Of a DNA stretch of 64,000 nt, positions 47,876-62,588 are shown piece by piece. The position numbers were made by a program, and so were the translations under genes. Below the pieces are notes generated by a model. The model saw only the letters and a list, made by a program, of their open reading frames with translations. It searched no databases and was not told where the DNA came from. The stretch comes from Sedimentibacter sp. MB31-C6 (lineage in GTDB: Bacteria; Bacillota; Clostridia; Tissierellales; Sedimentibacteraceae), in contig NZ_CP142396.1 of assembly GCF_035934735.1 (NCBI RefSeq), forward strand, positions 868,001 to 932,000, written 5' to 3'. Position 1 is the first letter of the stretch, and the number at the start of each line of letters is the position of its first letter.

Positions 47876-50800
47876 ATTTCAATACATCTAATGTTAAGGT
47901 TCAGCCGACACATAATGAATTCACCGTCAAATTTTAAATTAATTTCAATACATCTAATGTTAAGGTTCAGCTATTTTGCAAATGCTGTCGCATTTATTTG
48001 TGAAGAATTTCAATACATCTAATGTTAAGGTTCAGCATTAAGCTTTGTATCCATGCTTGCAAAAGTCAAGTTATTTCAATACATCTAATGTTAAGGTTCA
48101 GCCATTTAAAAAAAATAAGCAGGAAACAGAATTATACATTTCAATACATCTAATGTTAAGGTTCAGCGATTATATTCACCCATACTCTCATTAACTTTAG
48201 CTAATTTCAATACATCTAATGTTAAGGTTCAGCTCGTAATTTTTTTAAAAAATATTCTTTCTTTTTATATTTCAATACATCTAATGTTAAGGTTCAGCGA
48301 TAACACTGGCCGTGGAAGTTGAGCTATCTAATAAATTTCAATACATCTAATGTTAAGGTTCAGCAATAAATGCTACGTACGTAGTTAAAACTGTCATCAA
48401 ATTTCAATACATCTAATGTTAAGGTTCAGCTTTAAATGTTATTTTGACATCTTGTAAATTATTACATATTTCAATACATCTAATGTTAAGGTTCAGCTAA
48501 AAGGCATGGAAGCCAGACTTTTGATAATAGGTAATTTCAATACATCTAATGTTAAGGTTCAGCGCGATTCTACTCCGTTTCATATCAGTAATATCGCCAT
48601 TTCAATACATCTAATGTTAAGGTTCAGCATGTCTTTTTATTATGGCACTCCAAACATAAATACATTTCAATACATCTAATGTTAAGGTTCAGCCAAATCC
48701 CCTCTCTCTTCTTGTAAAAAGTTTTCTATTTCAATACATCTAATGTTAAGGTTCAGCAAGATGAATTAAAAAGAATAATAAACTGTTTAGGGCAATTTCA
48801 ATACATCTAATGTTAAGGTTCAGCGATAACGGAATCGATTATGTTGTAACAGATCAGGGATTTCAATACATCTAATGTTAAGGTTCAGCAACTTACTTTG
48901 TTGTAGAAGGTGATGATATTCCTTTCATTTCAATACATCTAATGTTAAGGTTCAGCAGGTAACGCAACACAAAATTTAGGAATGTATAACCCATTTCAAT
49001 ACATCTAATGTTAAGGTTCAGCTTTGAGTATTTTCACCGTCTGCAACAGTTTCAATATTTCAATACATCTAATGTTAAGGTTCAGCTAATTGATGGACAA
49101 ACTTACATAGCGGAAGACACAGATTTCAATACATCTAATGTTAAGGTTCAGCGTACAAGGAAGTGAGTTAGAGGAACTAGGATATTTATTTCAATACATC
49201 TAATGTTAAGGTTCAGCTGGACTGCAGCCAGCAAAAAATAAGGCGGTAGCCGAATTTCAATACATCTAATGTTAAGGTTCAGCTGGACTGCAGCCAGCAA
49301 AAAATAAGGCGGTAGCCGAATTTCAATACATCTAATGTTAAGGTTCAGCTGGGGAGCTGCCGCCTGCGGAAGTTAGTGAAGGCAGATTTCAATACATCTA
49401 ATGTTAAGGTTCAGCAGTATTGATTTGGTTGAATCAGAAGAGGGTGCAAAATTTCAATACATCTAATGTTAAGGTTCAGCACCAGCTTACCGCCGTATGT
49501 GTCAGTTTCTTTCCACATTTCAATACATCTAATGTTAAGGTTCAGCGTATTATAGACAGAGATTATTACTATTCAGACAAATTTCAATACATCTAATGTT
49601 AAGGTTCAGCTAGAATATTTGGAGAATGAAATGGAGGATTCTGAAATTTCAATACATCTAATGTTAAGGTTCAGCTATCTGCCGTTTTCACTATTGTAGC
49701 CTAATCTTGCCAATTTCAATACATCTAATGTTAAGGTTCAGCCCTTGTCGCTTACTTTTCTCCATTATAGCATACCGCATTTCAATACATCTAATGTTAA
49801 GGTTCAGCGTGGTATATCTCTTTTCCCCTGTCTGAGTTGTGTAAATTTCAATACATCTAATGTTAAGGTTCAGCCAAAATATAACAGAGGAAATAAATAT
49901 TGGAATATCGATTTCAATACATCTAATGTTAAGGTTCAGCGCTGATAAGTGAACTAGAACAACTACGATTTGAAATATTTCAATACATCTAATGTTAAGG
50001 TTCAGCTGAAGGCGGTGAAGAAATTAGACAGCCACAGCTTGCATTTCAATACATCTAATGTTAAGGTTCAGCTTGTATTGTATCGGAATAAGCTCCCAAA
50101 GTTCAACAAATTTCAATACATCTAATGTTAAGGTTCAGCGAAACTAATTGATAAATTAATTAAGGATGGAAGGCTATTTCAATACATCTAATGTTAAGGT
50201 TCAGCGAAACTAATTGATAAATTAATTAAGGATGGAAGGCTATTTCAATACATCTAATGTTAAGGTTCAGCTAAAAAGATTACAGCTAACAACTACATAC
50301 AGCTAACATTTCAATACATCTAATGTTAAGGTTCAGCAATAAGGTTTTATAATAGAAAGCGAGGATAAATAAAATTTCAATACATCTAATGTTAAGGTTC
50401 AGCAAACTGGATTGATGTGGGAAAGCCTTGGAATAGATTTCAATACATCTAATGTTAAGGTTCAGCATTATTAAAAAAAGCAAGTGACGGAGAAGTGAAT
50501 GTATTTCAATACATCTAATGTTAAGGTTCAGCGCAGTATTAATTTTAGCAGGCTTATATACTATTGAATTTCAATACATCTAATGTTAAGGTTCAGCCAT
50601 TAGAAAAGGTCATAGAGCAAGATATAATCTAATTTCAATACATCTAATGTTAAGGTTCAGCCAACTCGCACGTGGTATCTACGATCCTTTACAGAAATTT
50701 CAATACATCTAATGTTAAGGTTCAGCAATAGCAGAAACATAGAACATTGCAAATTATATGAATTTCAATACATCTAATGTTAAGGTTCAGCCAATTTTAT

Positions 50801-51314
50801 TGCATACACCGACGTACGCAGAACAATTTCAATACATCTAATGTTAAGGTTCAGCCTAATTGTTTTATACGAAGGTCTAATTCTTTGTTAATTTCAATAC
50901 ATCTAATGTTAAGGTTCAGCACAACTCGCACGTGGTATCTACGATCCTTTACAGAAATTTCAATACATCTAATGTTAAGGTTCAGCTAACTAATTGAGAA
51001 TTTTTCAATGTTGACATTCAAATTTCAATACATCTAATGTTAAGGTTCAGCTTACTGGACCTTTAACATTGACAGGTAATATAATCAATTTCAATACATC
51101 TAATGTTAAGGTTCAGCTTCCGTTGTTCTGGTAGGGCATTAAAAAAAATTTGATTTCAATACATCTAATGTTAAGGTTCAGCCTGTTTTTCAACTGGAAG
51201 TGTAGATAATTCGGCTCCATTTCAATACATCTAATGTTAAGGTTCAGCATTCCTTTTTCTACTCTTTTAAAATATCTTTCATCTATTTCAATACATCTAA
51301 TGTTAAGGTTCAGC
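47876..51314 (-). CRISPR. Type I-B CRISPR array, 53 repeats and 52 spacers
   Basis: The 30-bp repeat (plus strand starts ATTTCAATACATC and ends AAGGTTCAGC) was located 53 times; no variants noticed. Spacers are 33-37 nt (mean about 35.6). In crRNA orientation (minus strand) the repeat ends ATTGAAAT, the 8-nt 5' handle typical of type I-B, so the leader and newest spacers are at the high-coordinate end next to cas2. Numbered from the low end, spacers 21 and 22 are identical, 35 and 36 are identical, and 43 and 47 differ only by one base of length. No degenerate terminal repeat is seen at the trailer. Short reading frames across the array are not genes. Confidence 0.99.
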
Positions 51315-51491: not shown

Positions 51492-51779
51492 TTAAAGAAA
51501 AATACTTTCACTATTTTTTATTTTTCCAAGTTCCTCTTCAGCAAAGTTTCCTTTTCCAATAAATTTAATTATTGTAAAATAATCTTCATTAGGATTTATT
51601 ATTCCTTTAATTTCGTTTTTTAGTTTTATTAAATTTGATGGAGTTATTTCTCCTCTAAAAATCGAATTTTGGTGATGAGCAAAATACTTTTTACAAATTT
51701 TAAAAATCTTATGTACTCTCTTTTCATTCACATCATACATTACGAATGCATAATTAAAGTTATAACTTTTACTAGACAT
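51492..51779 (-). CDS. cas2: CRISPR adaptation endoribonuclease Cas2
   Basis: 95 residues with the ferredoxin-like Cas2 fold: FVMYDVNEKRVHKIFKICKKY (catalytic-type Asp in the first strand), HHQNSIFRGEITPSNL, then a C-terminal strand. Works with Cas1 in spacer integration. Its ATG overlaps the cas1 stop by one base (TAATG). Last gene of the operon; leader follows. Confidence 0.97.
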   Translation of the reverse strand: MSSKSYNFNYAFVMYDVNEKRVHKIFKICKKYFAHHQNSIFRGEITPSNLIKLKNEIKGIINPNEDYFTIIKFIGKGNFAEEELGKIKNSESIFL

Positions 51780-52780
51780 TACAACAACTCCTTTAAATTA
51801 AAAGGTTCAAAATTTTTATCCTCAACAATATATTTTATTAATTTATAACAATCTAACCTTATTGCTGTTTTGTATGAAATTTTCCTCTTTAATTTTGGAT
51901 GCATAAATGTATCATTTAATCTTTCTTCAAAAGCTTGTACAAAAATATTTCTCCCTTTTTCATTTAGGACACAATAATTTAACTTTTTATCAAAGTGCTC
52001 ATTAGCTTTCAACATCTTTCTGTTTGTTAATTCAAATATAGTTTTAAAAACAATTACTGGCTTAAAACTTTCACTTATATCTAAGGCTAATGAGAACCTT
52101 CCTTCTGATGGGCTATGTAAATAGCTAATAGAAGGGTTTAAATGCGTATTAAATATCTCAGTTATTGTCTTCGTATATATCATAGAATTACCAAAAGATA
52201 TTAATGCATTAATTGGATTATCAGGAGGTCTTCTTACTCTGCTATTCATCCAAAAATCTTCATGTAGAAATAGTTTGAAATAAGAATAAAATTTCTTCCA
52301 TATTTCACCTTCAACAAATAATAGCTCCTCAACTCTTCTCGATTTTTCTATTAGTATTATAGCATCATTTTTTATCCAATCTAAATAATCTTTTAGTTCA
52401 CTTTTACCATGACGATAATAATGATATAAAACCTCATGAATATTCATTGCTATAGACTTAACAAAAGCTTTTGCAACTACTAACCTATTATTATTAAATT
52501 TATCAACTTGCTTAATAAGTAATTTACCACTAATTAAATAATCTTTTGGATAAAAGGTACCCGAATAAAGGTTATAATAATTGAAAAAGTGCACTATAAC
52601 ACCAGCCCTTCCAAGAAAATCTAGTAATTTAGTGTTGATAGATATTTCATTCATACAATATATTTCTCTAACATTTTCTATTGGAATATAATTATTACCT
52701 TTTTCATTTACAAAAGAAAGAGAATTATCCTTACGTTTTAATTCTCCCATAGTAATTAAATACTTTGTATTTCTTGGCAC
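51779..52780 (-). CDS. cas1: CRISPR integrase Cas1 (type I-B)
   Basis: 333 residues. Metal-binding residues in the C-terminal helical domain: Glu near VEGEIWKKFY, His in ISYLHSPSEG, Asp/Glu in LALDISESFKP. N-terminal beta domain has KYLITMGELKRKDNSL. The GTG at 52780 is chosen: AGGAGG stands 6 nt upstream and the frame then begins at the usual Cas1 start. A TTG further up would overlap cas4. Confidence 0.97.
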   Translation of the reverse strand: MPRNTKYLITMGELKRKDNSLSFVNEKGNNYIPIENVREIYCMNEISINTKLLDFLGRAGVIVHFFNYYNLYSGTFYPKDYLISGKLLIKQVDKFNNNRLVVAKAFVKSIAMNIHEVLYHYYRHGKSELKDYLDWIKNDAIILIEKSRRVEELLFVEGEIWKKFYSYFKLFLHEDFWMNSRVRRPPDNPINALISFGNSMIYTKTITEIFNTHLNPSISYLHSPSEGRFSLALDISESFKPVIVFKTIFELTNRKMLKANEHFDKKLNYCVLNEKGRNIFVQAFEERLNDTFMHPKLKRKISYKTAIRLDCYKLIKYIVEDKNFEPFNLKELL

Positions 52781-52791
52781 AATATCCCTCC

Positions 52792-53283
52792 TTATATAAA
52801 GCAATACTCATAATAAGCACATTTCTTGCATTTTTTAGATTTTCCTACATCAGGGGGTTTTTCTTCATTTATTAAAATATTAATATTTTTTATTAAGTCT
52901 TGTAATAATTCTTCATGTTCTTCATTTAATTCTAGTATGATTGTTTTCTTATTTTGTTTATTTTTTTCATCAAATACTAATTTACCTTTTCTATATATTT
53001 TTTTATCCTTCAATACCTTTAGATAATAGAGAAGCTGCCATTTACTAGCTTCTACATCAGCATCAGATTTTTTAAATTCAATAATATATTCCGATGTTAA
53101 TTTATCTATTTTAATATTGTCGATTGAAACTTCGCTTTCTTCACTTTGGTCTTTAATTTCATGTAATATTTTACCGATATATACATCTTCACTATCATTT
53201 TCAAAATTTAATCTATTAGCATGTAAATAACATTGCCTCTTGCAATGAAAATAATAATTTATTAACGTTCCATTCAAATTCAT
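52792..53283 (-). CDS. cas4: Cas4 exonuclease (Fe-S, RecB-like)
   Basis: 163 residues. Cys14, Cys18 near the start (FHCKRQCYL) and Cys152, Cys155, Cys161 near the end for a [4Fe-4S] cluster; RecB nuclease motif EFKKS (69-73) and QLLYYLKVL. Trims and orients pre-spacers with a PAM before integration. Lies 21 nt after cas3. Confidence 0.95.
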   Translation of the reverse strand: MNLNGTLINYYFHCKRQCYLHANRLNFENDSEDVYIGKILHEIKDQSEESEVSIDNIKIDKLTSEYIIEFKKSDADVEASKWQLLYYLKVLKDKKIYRKGKLVFDEKNKQNKKTIILELNEEHEELLQDLIKNINILINEEKPPDVGKSKKCKKCAYYEYCFI

Positions 53284-53304
53284 ATAAACCCCACATTATA
53301 TTTA

Positions 53305-55887
53305 TTAAATCATCTCAAAGTTTTTTGTTTGTTTAAGCAAATTTACATTAAATTTCCCATCCTCCAAATATCTTTCTCCATCCTCTATATAAATTAAATC
53401 ACCTATTCTATCATTATATGAAAAAGATATATCATTTACTTCATAAGTAAAGTAATCCATTTTTTCCGAAATTTCTGATAGTTTTACTCTTCTTTCTGCG
53501 TAAGATAGCTCTTTATTTAATAAGATACTACAATACTCATTCCATATATTTATCCCTATTAGAATATTTCCATCTTCAAGTACTATTTCAGTGTTTAAAA
53601 ATAAAGTAAACTTGCTCTTTTCATCAATTAATTTCATTATTTTTTCGATTTCATTAAATTTAAATTGACTAAGCATCTCATTTCTAAAGCTTTCTATACT
53701 TTTTTCTGTTTTCTTATCTTTATTTTCTTCTATCTTTTTAATAACAATATCATAATAAATGTCAAATTTCTTATTTTTTAAGATATCTCTAATTTCATCA
53801 TTAATCAAAGTAATTTCTTTTAAATTCCTAACATCACCCTTATATATATTAGATGAATCGTCTAAATTGAAAAAATATGCCTTGCAACCTTCTTTTTTGC
53901 ATGACCTGTTAATTCTTCCTAAAAATTGTTCCTCACTATCTAAAATCGATATGTTCTTAAATCCAGTGTCCATATCTATATCAACGCCTGCTTCAATTAC
54001 TTGTGTAGCAATTAAAATAATATTTTTATGAACTTTTACTTTTTCAACAATTTTATTTCTATTAAATCTACTATCGTAACCAGTCATAAGCAATATTTCT
54101 GCATTAAGTGAGTATTCTTCCGCAACTATTTTAAATTTATTGTAAAAATCAAGAGCTCTTCTTTTACTTATAAACTCAACCACTATTTTACCTTCTAAAG
54201 TTGAATTAATTTTCGACCTATTATACTCGTCAATTATTGTTTCTATCAATTTATCCTCTATTTCATCTATGCCATCCAATGATAATAAAGAATAATCTAA
54301 TTCAACCCTATTTTTAAATAGTGGATTATAGTAATATCTATCTCTATTGCTAATTAATTTACAAAATTTATCCTTATCGTTACTTAAGATAGATAGATCA
54401 GGTAAGGTTGCAGACATTATAATTATTTTAATATTTAATAGTTTAGAATATGCTTTTAATAAAATTATAAATTCTTTCCAAATGCTATTTTTATAACTTT
54501 GTATTTCATCTAATACTACTACACTGTTTGCCATGTGTAGCAAAGGAAAAACTGATTCCTTATCAGTACCAAACAGTATGTTGAAAAATTTAACATGAGT
54601 TGTTATATTAATAGGGTAATGCAAGAACTGCCTTGATAAAAGGGACCTTTCATAATCTATATTTCGATTATATCCTGATTCAACAAATTTGCCAGTAGCT
54701 TCATCTTCATATGTTTTAATAGCCGTTATAGAATTTATAACCGCAATACTCTCTTTTATTTCTTTAGAATCATCAAATGTGTCAATCAGAGAACGTTTTG
54801 TTTGTTCTACTAGAGTGTTAAAAGGAAAAACATAAAATATTTTATTTAAATTTATATTTTTATTAATTAATTTTAATGATAAATTAATTGCCATATTGGT
54901 TTTACCGCTGCCAGTTGGCGCTTCTAAAAAGTATATATCATTATCCAGATTATCCAACAAATTTTCTTCACTTTCCAAAAACATTTCTGTTCTAAGCTTA
55001 TTGATATCATATTTATTATAGACATTGTCTATACCTAATGCCCTAGCTTTTTCGATTTTTTTATTTACTTTTGTTTCTTTAAATATCTTTATATATTTTT
55101 TTATATCATCAATAGTACCAAAATCATCAACTTCTTTATTATTTTGAAATTGAGATGTAGCATAGAAATCACAAGTCACTATCATTGAAAAAACGACTCT
55201 CGTATATAAGTACATGATTACAGAAATCCACTTTTCTTTTTTTCCCAAATCATTAACTATATCTAAAAGATTAATGCAATTTGTCATTCTTTGAATTGTT
55301 ATAAAGTTATCATTTAAATAATTAATATATTCAGGCTTTTCATCATCTTTTAATACGTCTTTTAAATCTTTTATATACTTAATAATTTCATCTAAATATC
55401 CATGATGTTTGCTGATTGCATAACTGTTTATAACTAAGAATGAAAACAAAAGTAAAAAATGGTCATCATTAATTTCATTCTTTAAATTCCATAGTTTTAT
55501 AGCATAATAATTAAAATAAATAACTGATGAAGTAAGAGAATGTTTTGAATTCCGTTTTTCTGATGTTTTGAAATCATTATTAGACAACCTTAGCGTTTGA
55601 AAATCTGGATTACTCTTTCCAAGATCATGGCAATACACAGCATTATAAAGAAGTTCTCTATAAAAATATCTTGCAGGTAAAATAGAGCCTTTAAATAAGT
55701 TTTGTTCAATATTTCCAAATATTAAGTCTAAATTTTTCTCTTTTATAATCTTATCTAAATAATACATGCATAGATTCATATGATTTTCTAACAACTCTTT
55801 ATTATCTTTATCCACATGTGCATATAATTTATCCCTATTAGCAATGTTACTTTTATAATCAAACAGCACAACATTATCAAAGTACAT
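53305..55887 (-). CDS. cas3: Cas3 helicase-nuclease
   Basis: 860 residues: N-terminal HD nuclease then a superfamily 2 helicase, fused. HD motif His87-Asp88 (CHDLGK), His161-His162 (SKHHG) and Asp240. Walker A APTGSGKT (323-330), motif II DEIQ (460-463, a DExH variant), SAT at 492-494, motif VI region QFLGRINRSCKK. Degrades target DNA recruited by Cascade. ATG with GGAGGTGAG. Confidence 0.97.
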   Translation of the reverse strand: MYFDNVVLFDYKSNIANRDKLYAHVDKDNKELLENHMNLCMYYLDKIIKEKNLDLIFGNIEQNLFKGSILPARYFYRELLYNAVYCHDLGKSNPDFQTLRLSNNDFKTSEKRNSKHSLTSSVIYFNYYAIKLWNLKNEINDDHFLLLFSFLVINSYAISKHHGYLDEIIKYIKDLKDVLKDDEKPEYINYLNDNFITIQRMTNCINLLDIVNDLGKKEKWISVIMYLYTRVVFSMIVTCDFYATSQFQNNKEVDDFGTIDDIKKYIKIFKETKVNKKIEKARALGIDNVYNKYDINKLRTEMFLESEENLLDNLDNDIYFLEAPTGSGKTNMAINLSLKLINKNINLNKIFYVFPFNTLVEQTKRSLIDTFDDSKEIKESIAVINSITAIKTYEDEATGKFVESGYNRNIDYERSLLSRQFLHYPINITTHVKFFNILFGTDKESVFPLLHMANSVVVLDEIQSYKNSIWKEFIILLKAYSKLLNIKIIIMSATLPDLSILSNDKDKFCKLISNRDRYYYNPLFKNRVELDYSLLSLDGIDEIEDKLIETIIDEYNRSKINSTLEGKIVVEFISKRRALDFYNKFKIVAEEYSLNAEILLMTGYDSRFNRNKIVEKVKVHKNIILIATQVIEAGVDIDMDTGFKNISILDSEEQFLGRINRSCKKEGCKAYFFNLDDSSNIYKGDVRNLKEITLINDEIRDILKNKKFDIYYDIVIKKIEENKDKKTEKSIESFRNEMLSQFKFNEIEKIMKLIDEKSKFTLFLNTEIVLEDGNILIGINIWNEYCSILLNKELSYAERRVKLSEISEKMDYFTYEVNDISFSYNDRIGDLIYIEDGERYLEDGKFNVNLLKQTKNFEMI

Positions 55888-55906
55888 TCTCTCACCTCCT
55901 TAAACC

Positions 55907-56668
55907 TTAAATGAATTGCAAATATTTTTCTTTAACATTATAAATTTTTTTGTCTGAATTTGGCTCTACTTTCATATTGGTGTGAATGAAAGGCTTTTTA
56001 ATATATTGATTACTCGTTTTATCAAGTTCTACTGGCAGATATTCTTCATACTTCCACTTTGCACTTTCATCAAAGTCCTTATCAAATAACATATTTAAAT
56101 CAAATTTTGCTATGTTGAAATCAGACTTTAAAAATAAGCTGTCTATTTTTTTAATTTTAGTTTTCTGTACTATTTGTATGTTGTCTTTTTCAATAATCTC
56201 AACATTCTTTATATTCGCATAATGATCATTTTTACCTAAGTATGGTATATATTCAAACCTCATATTTAAAAGTCTTTCTTTTATATCGTTAAATAATGAA
56301 CCTTCATGTATTTGTATATATATCGTCCAATTTGGTTTTTCAAGCCATTGTTCTCTTACGTTAAGAATGCCACCATCTTTGTTAGCATATCCAACAGCAT
56401 TGTTAAAAATTTGAATCTTTTTTGATATTAATCCCTTTTCATTGTTTGGTAAAATAGATATCTTTATATCTTTTAGTTTTTCATAAAACTCAGGATAATC
56501 ATCAGTTTCGTCTTGAAAAGCATAGCCATTAAGACCTAACATTGCACCAATTATTCCTAATAAAGCTATCCTATGGATATTTCCATACGTAAAGTAATAA
56601 TAAGTGTTTACGTCAGGTTTTTTAAAGAATGCTGTTTCACCGCTTAAATTAAATTTTAATATTTCCAT
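55907..56668 (-). CDS. cas5: Cascade subunit Cas5 (type I-B)
   Basis: 253 residues. Begins MEILKFNLSGETAFFKKPDVNTYY, then the Cas5 segment YGNIHRIALLGIIGAMLGLNG, where a helix with Gly-rich turn caps the crRNA 5' handle. Starts 2 nt after the cas7 stop. Binds the ATTGAAAT handle. Confidence 0.94.
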   Translation of the reverse strand: MEILKFNLSGETAFFKKPDVNTYYYFTYGNIHRIALLGIIGAMLGLNGYAFQDETDDYPEFYEKLKDIKISILPNNEKGLISKKIQIFNNAVGYANKDGGILNVREQWLEKPNWTIYIQIHEGSLFNDIKERLLNMRFEYIPYLGKNDHYANIKNVEIIEKDNIQIVQKTKIKKIDSLFLKSDFNIAKFDLNMLFDKDFDESAKWKYEEYLPVELDKTSNQYIKKPFIHTNMKVEPNSDKKIYNVKEKYLQFI

Positions 56669-56670
56669 AA

Positions 56671-57639
56671 TTAAATACCTTTTTTAGTAAATATATTAAA
56701 ATATTTTGCCCCTTCTATTTTACCTTCTATCTCTGTGGTATAAGGATTATAATATATTTCTATTGATTTTATCTTATCTTTTAAATCGTTTATTAAATTT
56801 TTAAAATTAAGTTTAACAGTCGATATGTTTTTTCCTTTTATAAATTCAACGAACTGTGTCATGTCTGGTAAATATAAATCCTTTTCAGTTTCGATAAATA
56901 TACCCAATTCATTTTCACATCCAACTTTTGAATTTGTATTAAAAGACGTAGCTGCAACAAGTGATGCATATTTAAACTTATTATAATCTTCTTCACTATA
57001 TCCATCAGTAGCCCCAAGATCTTCATACTCTTTATAAACCAATGGATTGATTGAAAATCCATAAAAATAGTGAGCTTCATTGCTAACTATTTTACTTCCT
57101 AAAGTTGATGAATTATCTTCTTGTTCTTCTTTTGTCACTTTATCCTTTTTATTTTTAGAATTTCTAAATGGTGATAAAATCTGCTGCTCTTCTACATTAT
57201 GTCCATCATATTTATTAAAACCCTGAGTTATTTGTACAGCACCTGTTATTGATATATTGTTACCTTCTTCAGCAAAGGTTGCTCCAAAGTTCTTTACATC
57301 AATTGCTTTAAATAAGTTTTCCAAAACTTTTTTATTATCCTTTTTATCTTTTTTATCTTTTAATACCTTTTCATTAAATATCTGCTCATATCTTTCACTT
57401 AATGATTTAGGCCTAATTACAGTCCCCTGCTTTTCAGATTCATCAATTTTATACGATTTAATATATAATACATTTTCACCTTGATTATCCCACATTTTTT
57501 TAATGGGATATTTAAACGCCTTATCACTACCAAACACTTCTCCTGTAGAAATAGATTTTGGATATCCTGTAAAATCAGCATTCCAATTTGACATAATTGA
57601 TTTTATCCCAAGTACTCCATATACTCTTTTATCCATCAT
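56671..57639 (-). CDS. cas7: Cascade backbone subunit Cas7 (type I-B)
   Basis: 322 residues of the RAMP fold; the chain that coats the crRNA spacer. Features: KRVYGVLGIKSIMSNWNADF, an insert of charged residues (SKNKKDKVTKEEQEDNSST, about 160-180), NEAHYFYGFSINPLVYKEYE. The ATG at 57639 is chosen; its AGGAGG is 11 nt upstream, inside the end of cas8b. A frame nine codons longer would overlap cas8b without a ribosome site. Assignment to Csh2-like or Cst2-like subfamily is not resolved. Confidence 0.9.
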   Translation of the reverse strand: MMDKRVYGVLGIKSIMSNWNADFTGYPKSISTGEVFGSDKAFKYPIKKMWDNQGENVLYIKSYKIDESEKQGTVIRPKSLSERYEQIFNEKVLKDKKDKKDNKKVLENLFKAIDVKNFGATFAEEGNNISITGAVQITQGFNKYDGHNVEEQQILSPFRNSKNKKDKVTKEEQEDNSSTLGSKIVSNEAHYFYGFSINPLVYKEYEDLGATDGYSEEDYNKFKYASLVAATSFNTNSKVGCENELGIFIETEKDLYLPDMTQFVEFIKGKNISTVKLNFKNLINDLKDKIKSIEIYYNPYTTEIEGKIEGAKYFNIFTKKGI

Positions 57640-57643
57640 TTTA

Positions 57644-59338
57644 CTACTTTCCTCCTTCTTTTTCATAAATTATATTTTTACATAAAAAACCTGCTAACAA
57701 TACATCATCATTTACTCTTTTATCTTTTGGTATATACCTTAAAATCATTCCATAAAGATTACTAAATTTCAATGACGAAAATTCTATTTTGTAATTGTAT
57801 TTTTTATATAACCCCTTTATTCTTTGTAAAAGAATTTCATAATTGTTGCTATTAATAATTGGATTAATCAATGATTGTTGTCTTTTTGTTGATTGACTTT
57901 GAGACAATAAATAATAAACAACTTGTCCTACTGCAAAATAATATTCATCATCACTTATAATTGAACTTATCTCTTTTTTTCCTGCTTTTTGACGCAACCC
58001 TTCATATGCTACATCTAACCTTTCAGCCATCTTACTGTCACCTCCAAAATATTCTAAAATAGATTCTCTCAAATTTAATTGTTCTAATGCCTTGAAATCA
58101 TAACCCTTATTAACAGAATTTTTTATTATTCTTAGTGAACTTTCTTTAAATAATGGTTTTACAGAATTTTCATATCCCTTATAAAACCAATTGAAATAAG
58201 CAGTCCTACTTTTAATAAGCTCTTCTTTAATAATACTATCATTCAATTTTATATCCTTAGCATCTGTAAAAAAATTACCAACTAAAAATTTACTGAAAAA
58301 TAAAGTATTTATATATTCTTGTAATTCTTTAAATTTATAAACTTTACCATATGATAAAGTTCCTTTATTTGTGTTATTAATAGAGTCGACTGAAATAACT
58401 TGCTTAAGTTTGAAGTTTTTTAATAATGGTGTGTAAAAAGAAATGTTGTCAAAATCATGTATTTCTACTTCTTTTCCCTTTTTTAATCTTAAAAAATACC
58501 CACAAAAATTTTCATCTAATAATTCTGTGTTTCCTACAGGTTTTATTTTCTTGTCTACATAAATATTTGTATAACCTTTATTAGCTAAATTATAAAGATA
58601 ATCAAAAAGTTTTTTTTGAAGTAATACCTCATCTTGAGAAATTAAATAAGGCGTCGTTATTTTTCTGTTTTTATTATCTAAATATGGCTTTTTAGGATTT
58701 AAACCTATATTATTATTTGGCATACCATATATAATATCATTAATTTTTATATTATAATCTTTGGAGTTGTAAATATTAGGAAGCATGTATCTTTTGTTTT
58801 CTCTATCATATTCTTCAATACTTGCTTCAAAAAATATTTTAATATAGTTCTTATCATCTTTAAAACCATATTTTTTTATTATATTAAATATATTATCCTT
58901 TATCCATGCTTTATACTTTTTTATTTTAGCTCCATCTGGTAAACCTATTTCTTTTTCAATAATAGAATATAGTTCTGTTTTTTTTGGATTCAATAGATTA
59001 TTATAATAACCATCTATTATGTCATTGTTCAATTTTTCTTCTATTTTATCTTTCTTAATCCAAAATGAATAATAGTTATTACTATGGATTGTTTTGCTAT
59101 TATCAATAGGCTTATTCATTTCCAATAGTTTACTAAGATAATCCATAACAACAAATTTCTCACTACTGACTTCATCATAATTTTTTTTATTAACTTCCAA
59201 AATATTTTCGTACTTTATAGCTCCATCATTACTAATAAGCACATATGTCCCATCATCTAATTTATGGTTATCTGTTATTAGTTCATCTCCTGATTCACGA
59301 TACATGTTTAAAAACGCTTGCAATATATCTGCAATCAA
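57644..59338 (-). CDS. cas8b: Cascade large subunit Cas8b
   Basis: 564 residues, the PAM-recognising large subunit. Weakly conserved in sequence; recognised by size, position between cas6 and cas7, and by the Csh1-type start ADILQAFLNMYRESGDEL with YLISQDEVLLQKKLFDYLYN. No zinc-finger Cys4 seen. TTG start with AGGAGGTGATAAA upstream. Confidence 0.88.
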   Translation of the reverse strand: MIADILQAFLNMYRESGDELITDNHKLDDGTYVLISNDGAIKYENILEVNKKNYDEVSSEKFVVMDYLSKLLEMNKPIDNSKTIHSNNYYSFWIKKDKIEEKLNNDIIDGYYNNLLNPKKTELYSIIEKEIGLPDGAKIKKYKAWIKDNIFNIIKKYGFKDDKNYIKIFFEASIEEYDRENKRYMLPNIYNSKDYNIKINDIIYGMPNNNIGLNPKKPYLDNKNRKITTPYLISQDEVLLQKKLFDYLYNLANKGYTNIYVDKKIKPVGNTELLDENFCGYFLRLKKGKEVEIHDFDNISFYTPLLKNFKLKQVISVDSINNTNKGTLSYGKVYKFKELQEYINTLFFSKFLVGNFFTDAKDIKLNDSIIKEELIKSRTAYFNWFYKGYENSVKPLFKESSLRIIKNSVNKGYDFKALEQLNLRESILEYFGGDSKMAERLDVAYEGLRQKAGKKEISSIISDDEYYFAVGQVVYYLLSQSQSTKRQQSLINPIINSNNYEILLQRIKGLYKKYNYKIEFSSLKFSNLYGMILRYIPKDKRVNDDVLLAGFLCKNIIYEKEGGK

Positions 59339-59354
59339 TTTATCACCTCCTCTA

Positions 59355-60044
59355 TTATATAAATTTATAATTCGTATATCCGTAGCCTCTTGAATTCAGT
59401 TCAGATAATCCTGTGCCTAATGCAAAATAACTAAGCATCTGTGCAGTTTTATTATCTGCAACTTGTAATGATAATTTATCCCCTAACAATTTGATATTTT
59501 TTATTGGAATTGCAATTGGTTTATCATTTTCAAATTGAATATGATTAAATAATTCAAAATTTTCATCTAATTTTTCACCAAAGAATTCTTGATATTTTTT
59601 AATTAAATTTGTCCTTAAACGGTTTTCATATTCAGAAATAGTATATTTCCCCTTCCAATAGCCATCAAATTTCACAACACAAGGGGTAACACTATATATT
59701 TTATGAATATGTCTGTAAGGTAAAACTTTTGTTTGAACGGTTAAGGCTTTAATTTTATCGGTGTATTCGTTTGCAAGATATGTTTCAAAATACTTAACTA
59801 ATCTGTCATCTACTGTTCTTATTAAGACAGTATATATTTTACCAGCCTTATATATTTTATCTTTCTCAAGAGGATAAAATGAATTAAATGTGTAAAATTT
59901 AAATTTTCTTTCTTTATGGAATTTTTTCATTTCTTCTGAATGAATAAAACTTTTATCAATTAATGCCGCAATGGTTTCAGACGATTTAACTGCTGAAATG
60001 TCTTCCATTAAATAAGCTTTTAACTTTAATTCGTATACTTTCAT
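59355..60044 (-). CDS. cas6: crRNA-processing endoribonuclease Cas6
   Basis: 229 residues from the ATG at 60044 (AAAGGAGGTGATATC upstream). RAMP fold with the Gly-rich loop ALGTGLSELNSRGYGYTNY at the C-terminus, and His at ~35 (SFIHSEEMKKFH) as candidate catalytic residues. Cuts the repeat to leave the ATTGAAAT handle. First gene of the operon. Its 5' leader contains two repeat-like sequences that Cas6 itself might bind. Confidence 0.95.
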   Translation of the reverse strand: MKVYELKLKAYLMEDISAVKSSETIAALIDKSFIHSEEMKKFHKERKFKFYTFNSFYPLEKDKIYKAGKIYTVLIRTVDDRLVKYFETYLANEYTDKIKALTVQTKVLPYRHIHKIYSVTPCVVKFDGYWKGKYTISEYENRLRTNLIKKYQEFFGEKLDENFELFNHIQFENDKPIAIPIKNIKLLGDKLSLQVADNKTAQMLSYFALGTGLSELNSRGYGYTNYKFI

Positions 60045-60071: not shown

Positions 60072-60157
60072 TAGCCAATACATAAAATGTTGAAGTTCAA
60101 TATTTCACAATAATTAATATTTTATCAATTTAAATACATCAAAATGTTAACATTAAT
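60072..60157 (-). repeat. Two degenerate CRISPR repeats flanking a 26-nt pseudo-spacer in the cas leader
   Basis: Minus strand. First copy (60128-60157) ends TTTTGATGTATTTAAAT, against AGATGTATTGAAAT in the array repeat, with TTAACATT upstream and one indel. Second copy (60072-60101) begins ATTGAACTTCAACATTTTAT and then GTATTGG; it agrees with the array repeat at 21 of the first 26 positions. Between them lies TGATAAAATATTAATTATTG plus TGAAAT (60102-60127). Both lie downstream of the cas promoter and upstream of the cas6 ribosome site, so they would be transcribed in the cas mRNA. Confidence 0.8.
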
Positions 60158-60172
60158 TTATATTATATTATG

Positions 60173-60201
60173 ATAATACCATATATGTAAAAATATGTCA
60201 A
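60173..60201 (-). promoter_or_regulatory. Sigma-A promoter of the cas operon
   Basis: -35 TTGACA (60196-60201), 17-nt spacer, -10 TATTAT (60173-60178). Predicted start near 60166 gives a ~120-nt 5' untranslated region containing the two repeat-like elements. Confidence 0.82.
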
Positions 60202-60206
60202 TATAT

Positions 60207-60255
60207 AAAACTAAAAAGTAGCAAGTTTAATATTTTCTTGCTACTTTTTAGTTTT
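60207..60255. terminator. Bidirectional terminator between the HD gene and cas promoter
   Basis: 19-bp perfect stem AAAACTAAAAAGTAGCAAG/CTTGCTACTTTTTAGTTTT with an 11-nt loop. It ends the minus-strand HD gene and insulates the cas promoter that begins 6 nt further. Confidence 0.88.
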
Positions 60256-60273
60256 ATATATTTAGGTTTACAA

Positions 60274-61785: not shown

Positions 61786-61900
61786 GTGCGGGACGCATAC
61801 AATGCGTCCCCTACGTTTTGGGGTCTTTGTGGTACGCATACAATGCGTCCCCTACGTTTTGGGGTCTTGCGGGACGCATGGAATGCGTCCCCTACGTTTC
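61786..61900. repeat. Three tandem REP-like palindromes, third locus
   Basis: Three units of 40-41 bp, each GGGACGCAT(AC or GG)AATGCGTCCC followed by CTACGTTTTGGGGTCTT (last unit truncated after CTACGTTT). Unit 2 has GGTACGCAT instead. Lies between pgeF and the RluA gene. The short plus-strand frame across it is an artefact of the repeat. Confidence 0.88.
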
Positions 61901-61901
61901 A

Positions 61902-62588
61902 TTATGAATAATTAAATAGGGTAAAGGGGTAGAGGTTTGGCTTAGATGTATATTCTACATATAGTTTTGTTTTTGGATGCTTAAATCCGAATTTGTATGA
62001 CCAAAGTGCAATATTTGTGAATTCTTTTTTCTTTACAAACACTTTATTATATTTATTGTCCCCCCAAATAGGCATGTTTGCATTTGATAGCTGAACTCTT
62101 ATTTGATGATGTCTGCCTGTTAATAATTTTATTTTCATTAAAGTAAGAGGTCCATATTCTTCTGTAACAACCGTATCTATAACTCTATATTCGAGCGTGG
62201 CTAGTTTACCTACTTTATCATCTTTTGTTGTTACTTTAGACATATTAATAGTTTTTAATTTTTTCAAATAATCCTGTAACAAACCAGTTTTCTCTTCTGG
62301 GTTACTACACACAACTGCAAAGTATTCTTTATGTGTTTCTCTTTGTTGAACTTGCCTTGAAAGTTCTTTATTTGCAAATGGATTTTTTGAATATACTATG
62401 ACTCCACCAACAGGTCTATCAAGCCTCTGAATTAGACCTAAATATGGATTTTCATTTTTTGTTTTTAAATAATTTATAGTTACTGACATTAAGTCTTCGT
62501 CATTTGTTTTATCGCTTTGGGAAGGTACTCCTTGAGGTTTTACTAGGCATAATATATGTTTATCTTCATATATAATATTTAATTCCAT
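61902..62588 (-). CDS. RNA pseudouridine synthase, RluA family
   Basis: 228 residues. Catalytic Asp in IQRLDRPVGGVIVYSK; conserved YFAVV and TGRHHQIRVQLS. There is no S4 domain, as in the short RluA-type or YlyB-like members. Modifies uridine in rRNA or tRNA; the exact site is not readable. ATG with TGGAGATA. Confidence 0.92.
   Translation of the reverse strand: MELNIIYEDKHILCLVKPQGVPSQSDKTNDEDLMSVTINYLKTKNENPYLGLIQRLDRPVGGVIVYSKNPFANKELSRQVQQRETHKEYFAVVCSNPEEKTGLLQDYLKKLKTINMSKVTTKDDKVGKLATLEYRVIDTVVTEEYGPLTLMKIKLLTGRHHQIRVQLSNANMPIWGDNKYNKVFVKKKEFTNIALWSYKFGFKHPKTKLYVEYTSKPNLYPFTLFNYS

Follow-up and report, generated by a model that had tools for sequence, protein, structure and literature searches.

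In type II-A systems, a long-form tracrRNA serves as a natural guide that turns Cas9 on its own cas promoter; that arrangement uses Cas9 and tracrRNA, without Cas6-cut repeats, and in this it differs from the locus described here. Closer is CreR (Liu et al. 2023, Cell Host Microbe 31:1481), which reviews (PMC12737573, PMC13131331, PMC12948488) describe as mediating autorepression in type I-B, I-E and V-A systems, relieved by competing crRNAs or anti-CRISPRs. The element analysed here resembles CreR, as those reviews present it, in being a crRNA-like mini-CRISPR guide partly complementary to the cas promoter, but differs in that the mini-array has its target on one side and cas6 on the other, apparently within the cas mRNA leader, with the target overlapping the first repeat. 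CreA of the CreTA module, in the accounts of PMC8501985 and PMC9458426, is likewise built from a first degenerate repeat that keeps its 8-nt handle and a second that keeps its Cas6-side part, and likewise directs Cascade-guided repression through partial matching; CreA, however, represses a toxin RNA and makes cells Cascade-dependent, whereas the target here is the cas start region. The principle is known, and no leader-embedded guide was found in titles and abstract openings among the matches listed on CreR and mini-CRISPR autorepression; with caution, we put forward the leader-embedded layout as a variant.

The window, by which we mean the whole 64,000-nt stretch of Sedimentibacter sp. MB31-C6 DNA that was analysed, carries a type I-B system on its minus strand, cas genes first and array after them. 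The array repeat reads GCTGAACCTTAACATTAGATGTATTGAAAT on the crRNA strand, and its 53 copies enclose 52 spacers of 33–37 nt. Some adjoining spacers are exact duplicates (17 and 18, 31 and 32), and spacers 6 and 10 are alike except for one end base. In AT-rich surroundings between pgeF and the next gene, 61787–61908 holds three tandem 40–41-bp copies of a GC-rich unit (GGGACGCATACAATGCGTCCC). Between cas6 and the upstream HD-domain gene lies a gap of about 230 nt (18% GC) that contains, in order toward cas6, an inverted repeat, promoter candidates, a first degenerate repeat (R1), a pseudo-spacer, a second degenerate repeat (R2), a ribosome site and the cas6 start at 60044. The features are as follows.

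60200..60262, no strand: perfect 26-bp inverted repeat (arms 60200–60225 and 60237–60262, 11-nt loop) in the interval between the HD-domain gene and the cas promoter
60173..60201, minus strand: cas promoter candidate A, TTGACA-17-TATTAT, 11/12, with TG ahead of the second hexamer
60162..60191, minus strand: cas promoter candidate B, TTTACA-18-TATAAT, 11/12, overlapping candidate A
60171..60173, minus strand: PAM TCA of the guide target, adjoining it
60145..60170, minus strand: guide target TAATATAATATAAATTAATGTTAACA, 19/26 matches to the guide, overlapping R1 by 13 nt
60128..60157, minus strand: R1, carrying the handle ATTTAAAT at 60135–60128
60102..60127, minus strand: pseudo-spacer (guide) TGATAAAATATTAATTATTGTGAAAT, 26 nt
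60072..60101, minus strand: R2, positions 1–26 kept and handle end lost
59355..60044, minus strand: cas6, 229 aa, Pfam Cas6 C-terminal match above cut-off, NCBIfam cas6 match just below cut-off
51517..59338, minus strand: remaining cas operon (cas8b, cas7, cas5b, cas3, cas4, cas1b, cas2), with profile matches except for cas8b, a large gene that lacks an NCBIfam or Pfam match and was assigned by position
47876..51314, minus strand: CRISPR array, 53 identical 30-nt repeats

The inverted repeat is a possible terminator, which the terminator scan did not have among its listed sites. Because the promoter scan returned 4 such sites overall against 4.6 expected in shuffles, the promoter call rests on the quality of a single match, candidate A. 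R1 agrees with the array repeat at 18/30 positions ungapped and at 23/30 when one inserted base is allowed, and its handle, the last 8 nt, agrees with the array handle ATTGAAAT at 7/8; R2 agrees at 20/30 ungapped, all 20 within positions 1–26, and nothing else outside the array matches the repeat better in the 64-kb window. The sequence-only reading had described two repeat-like blocks of the same orientation around a 26-nt pseudo-spacer between the cas promoter and cas6, and we locate them as R1 and R2, starting 56 nt apart; its figure of 21/26 for the second repeat becomes 20/26 on recount. As in CreR, two repeat-like blocks surround a short spacer beside the cas genes and retain, at the level of sequence, what Cas6 processing and the handle need (R1 through its handle, R2 through its 20/26), while the imperfect repeats and a spacer of 26 nt rather than 33–37 nt set the element apart from a canonical array. 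Same-strand pairs 45–75 nt apart and as good as this one arose in 9/20,000 dinucleotide shuffles of the 230-nt intergenic region, in 14/20,000 trials with shuffled repeats and in 0/519 other 230-nt segments of the window, so the likeness does exceed chance, as had been claimed.

In type I effectors every sixth base is flipped out and unread, and our scoring of read positions ignored every sixth base. On this score the guide finds its target directly behind the −10 box, with 14/15 read positions matched among the first 17. The full-length mismatches fall at positions 2, 6, 12, 18, 22, 25 and 26, that at position 2, within the seed, being an rG–dT wobble; complementarity to the system's own cas promoter beside a PAM is thus limited, as for CreR. 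Among the window's 2,432 TCA sites the target ranked first, the runner-up reaching 12/15; the upstream regions of other loci never reached 14 against the focal guide (0/59, best 13), and the 52 array spacers scored at most 10/15 in the leader. Across the 3.02-Mb genome, with A or G allowed at position 2, no site but the cas start region came within one mismatch of the guide and PAM pattern; there were 20 further sites at two mismatches, and a reversed-pattern control gave 13 sites in all. An opposite-strand target at 60171 (TGATAATAC, flank TTA) came top in a plain seed scan yet scored lower, and the TCA site emerged once every sixth position was left out of scoring. The sequence-only reading had offered as one of two models a CreR-like guide with a partly matching target, but had named no target; a PAM-adjacent one in the operon's own start region, together with recurrence of the design in relatives, strongly supports that model.

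TTTCA is described as a functional PAM in the type I-B system of C. pasteurianum (PMC4860712). Among seven protospacer-like matches that reach at least 80% against the focal array, three were flanked by TCA (spacer 43 in two genomes, spacer 41), one by ACA (spacer 40, in a phage) and three by AAG or CAG (spacer 23, three genomes, 86%). Counted by spacer, four have matches at that level, and TCA flanks those of two, ACA and AAG/CAG those of the other two. Two weaker matches of spacer 1 (75%, two genomes) were flanked by GCT. Compared with phage records, the focal array matched 3 records, one of which was inspected.

Relatives of cas6 occurred in 3/27 genomes of the family, 22/249 of the order and 27/391 of the class, the window's own genome being counted in each, and a scan of genome contigs gave 19 loci. 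The best relative was 58% identical, and none of these searches (family, order and class genomes, contig scan) found a close relative with the focal leader itself. Plasmids carried 6 distant cas6 relatives, and none was confirmed in viral contigs. Outside the window, the class-level search yielded 29 matches (30 rows with loci once the window is counted), of which 20 were taken as long regions and 8 others (L088–L096, without the unlisted neighbour of L092) entered the upstream test as short loci. Removal of three copies (L017, L025 and L106, equal to L012, L013 and L015) left 68 upstream regions; a check found no further copies, only one genus (L055–L060) being alike at 86–97%. One region had no usable upstream sequence (L049) and four were short (L052, L090, L096, L111).

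An automated test that demanded a repeat-like block of at least 14/30, a TCA target of at least 13/15 and a seed of at least 9/10 was passed by 24/68 upstream regions, against 19/4,556 cross-locus comparisons; 44/68 failed, 4 or 5 of these through missing upstream sequence. The test proposed by the sequence-only reading, whether relatives conserve the repeat-like blocks, thereby has a positive outcome in distant relatives. We also picked 18 mini-arrays by eye from a listing, on their repeats, and in 17 of these the TCA target at the locus itself beat every control region. The exception, L054, had a weak target (11/15, equalled by 2/59 control regions), and a target at L063 was rejected, 6/56 controls being as good. 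At L053 and L054 a true array runs towards cas6 and has the guide as its last, short unit, a layout that looks like an intermediate between an array and a stand-alone guide.

We then compared seeds under different masks in 17 repeat-chosen mini-arrays (L057, with the same guide as L058, was left out), taking the best site by 11 seed positions without requiring a PAM. With position 6 ignored, the best seed match lay behind TCA in 17/17 and was perfect in 14/17; ignoring any one of positions 2–5 or 7–10 instead gave 2–4 perfect seeds, and ignoring nothing gave 2/17, with 16/17 behind TCA. Cross-locus, a perfect seed and TCA came together in 0/937. Twenty-one guide–target pairs, comprising the 17 repeat-chosen ones and four found via the target search (L064, L067, L102, L118; L026 and L057 absent), were mismatched at position 6 in 18 and at position 12 in 11, and carried 4 mismatches in 210 cells at positions 1–5 and 7–11; the score that selected these pairs left positions 6 and 12 out of account and gave credit for matches at the others. 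Within one genus, guide and target covary by eye (both ACTAA in two genomes, both GTTAA in two others) and the position-6 mismatch stays. L055 and L059, of the same genus, both seem by eye to have lost the target TCA and the R1 end. Repeat decay was compared at 15 of the 18 repeat-chosen loci, those with an array of their own (L015, L057 and L115 out): R1 kept 95% of its 8-nt handle versus 74% of its 5′ part, and R2 kept 84% of positions 1–22 versus 35% of positions 24–30, the decay pattern described for creA (PMC8501985).

The analysis shows the anatomy, the target and its PAM, the mismatch pattern, genome uniqueness, recurrence and guide–target covariation in relatives; that the guide is transcribed, processed and loaded, that it represses and can be relieved, and that it shares a single transcript with the cas mRNA is what we infer. 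Read in this way, the mini-array is very probably a CreR-type regulatory guide that Cascade uses to repress cas transcription. A transcript from the cas promoter would run through R1, pseudo-spacer and R2 into cas6, and Cas6 would cleave at R1 and R2, releasing a small RNA with the handle AUUUAAAU first and then UGAUAAAAUAUUAAUU, which would be loaded into Cascade; this Cas6-dependent small RNA would start AUUUAAAUUGAUAAAAUA and end in R2. Bound at the PAM TCA (60173–60171) in the start region of the cas operon, Cascade would block initiation, and the shortness and incomplete match of the guide would keep it from cutting. A 24-nt guide is reported to repress without cutting in one type I-B system, in which 28 nt still cuts somewhat (PMC10989794), and the switch between repressing and cutting is placed at 26 nt in another (PMC10551041); the focal guide has 26 nt, 19 of them matched. 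The result would be negative feedback on cas expression that relaxes under competition for Cascade from array crRNAs, or once an anti-CRISPR has put Cascade out of action. Counting against this reading are the mismatch at seed position 2, the 44/68 upstream regions that failed the automated test and the ACA, AAG/CAG and GCT flanks of some array-spacer matches; the three TCA flanks count for it.

Layout was compared across 23 mapped loci, the window included, namely the 24 that passed the automated test without L091 and L095 (over thresholds with a repeat match of 16/30), plus L054. Mini-arrays ran with cas6 in 19/23 and against it in 4/23 (L012, L113, L115, L118); these four retain the control with their guide gene reversed. 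The target lay between mini-array and cas6 in 21/23, and upstream of the mini-array only in the window and in L102, where a plausible cas6 promoter (TTTACA-17-TAAAAT, by eye) stands below the mini-array. L107 and L108 have a small ORF (about 70–90 aa, helix-turn-helix-like by eye) between target and cas6, and the guide target there therefore heads an operon that begins with a possible regulator. In the window, whose layout is unusual, the target precedes R1 and overlaps it, and guide and cas mRNA therefore probably share one transcript. Below the promoter candidates there is only a weak promoter-like site, within the mini-array at 60128–60099 (TTGATA-18-AATATT, 9/12 in the promoter scan), so that the simplest view places the guide within the leader of the cas mRNA, a view that rests on promoter prediction rather than mapped ends; the weak site could itself yield cas6 mRNA without the guide, which counts against a shared transcript. 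On balance we favour, with some reserve, a single-transcript, self-limiting operon in which Cas6 would cut the repressing guide from the leader of the mRNA encoding Cas6 and Cascade, and the guide would target a promoter and start site overlapping its own first repeat. If so, guide and effector message would be made one for one, each guide costing one leader cleavage, and R1 would be doubly constrained, as Cas6 substrate and as Cascade target.

Could the repeats act without any guide? Cas6 might simply bind and cut its own mRNA leader and so limit its own message, which was the second model of the sequence-only reading, and both R1 and R2 do lie within the predicted leader and retain their Cas6-side sequence; leader cutting would indeed follow if the guide derives from the cas leader. 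As a full explanation this is very improbable, since it leaves the PAM-adjacent target with mismatches at every sixth base unexplained, and relatives keep guide and target where the mini-array lies outside the leader, including the four that run away from cas6. Less probable again is a decayed remnant of an ordinary array with no present function. True arrays do lie directly upstream of cas6 in six relatives (L013, L018, L054, L103, L109, L117), but the array-end repeat pairs in three of them (L013, L018, L109) have no target match, and at loci with mini-arrays decay is non-random, sparing the R1 handle and the R2 body; the focal guide–target match, moreover, is unique in the genome.

The anatomy of two divergent repeats around a short guide is also that given for creA (PMC8501985), which would suit a CreTA-type addiction module whose guide represses a toxin RNA and not the cas genes. 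Against this, the site search gave the cas start region, and no toxin-RNA promoter, as the one genomic site within one mismatch, and only the mini-array stands between target and cas6; we regard such a module as no more credible than a dead remnant. The CreR-type regulatory guide is the reading that we retain.

These observations support the view that type I-B systems of clostridia and related bacteria commonly include RNA-guided self-repression among their layers of control; such systems serve in native genome editing and are targets of anti-CRISPRs. Guide–target mismatches across the loci are concentrated at positions 6 and 12, the rest of the seed being almost free of them, which offers a natural readout of the bases that Cascade reads. 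The focal layout lends itself to examining feedback with a guide and an effector that would come from a single transcript.
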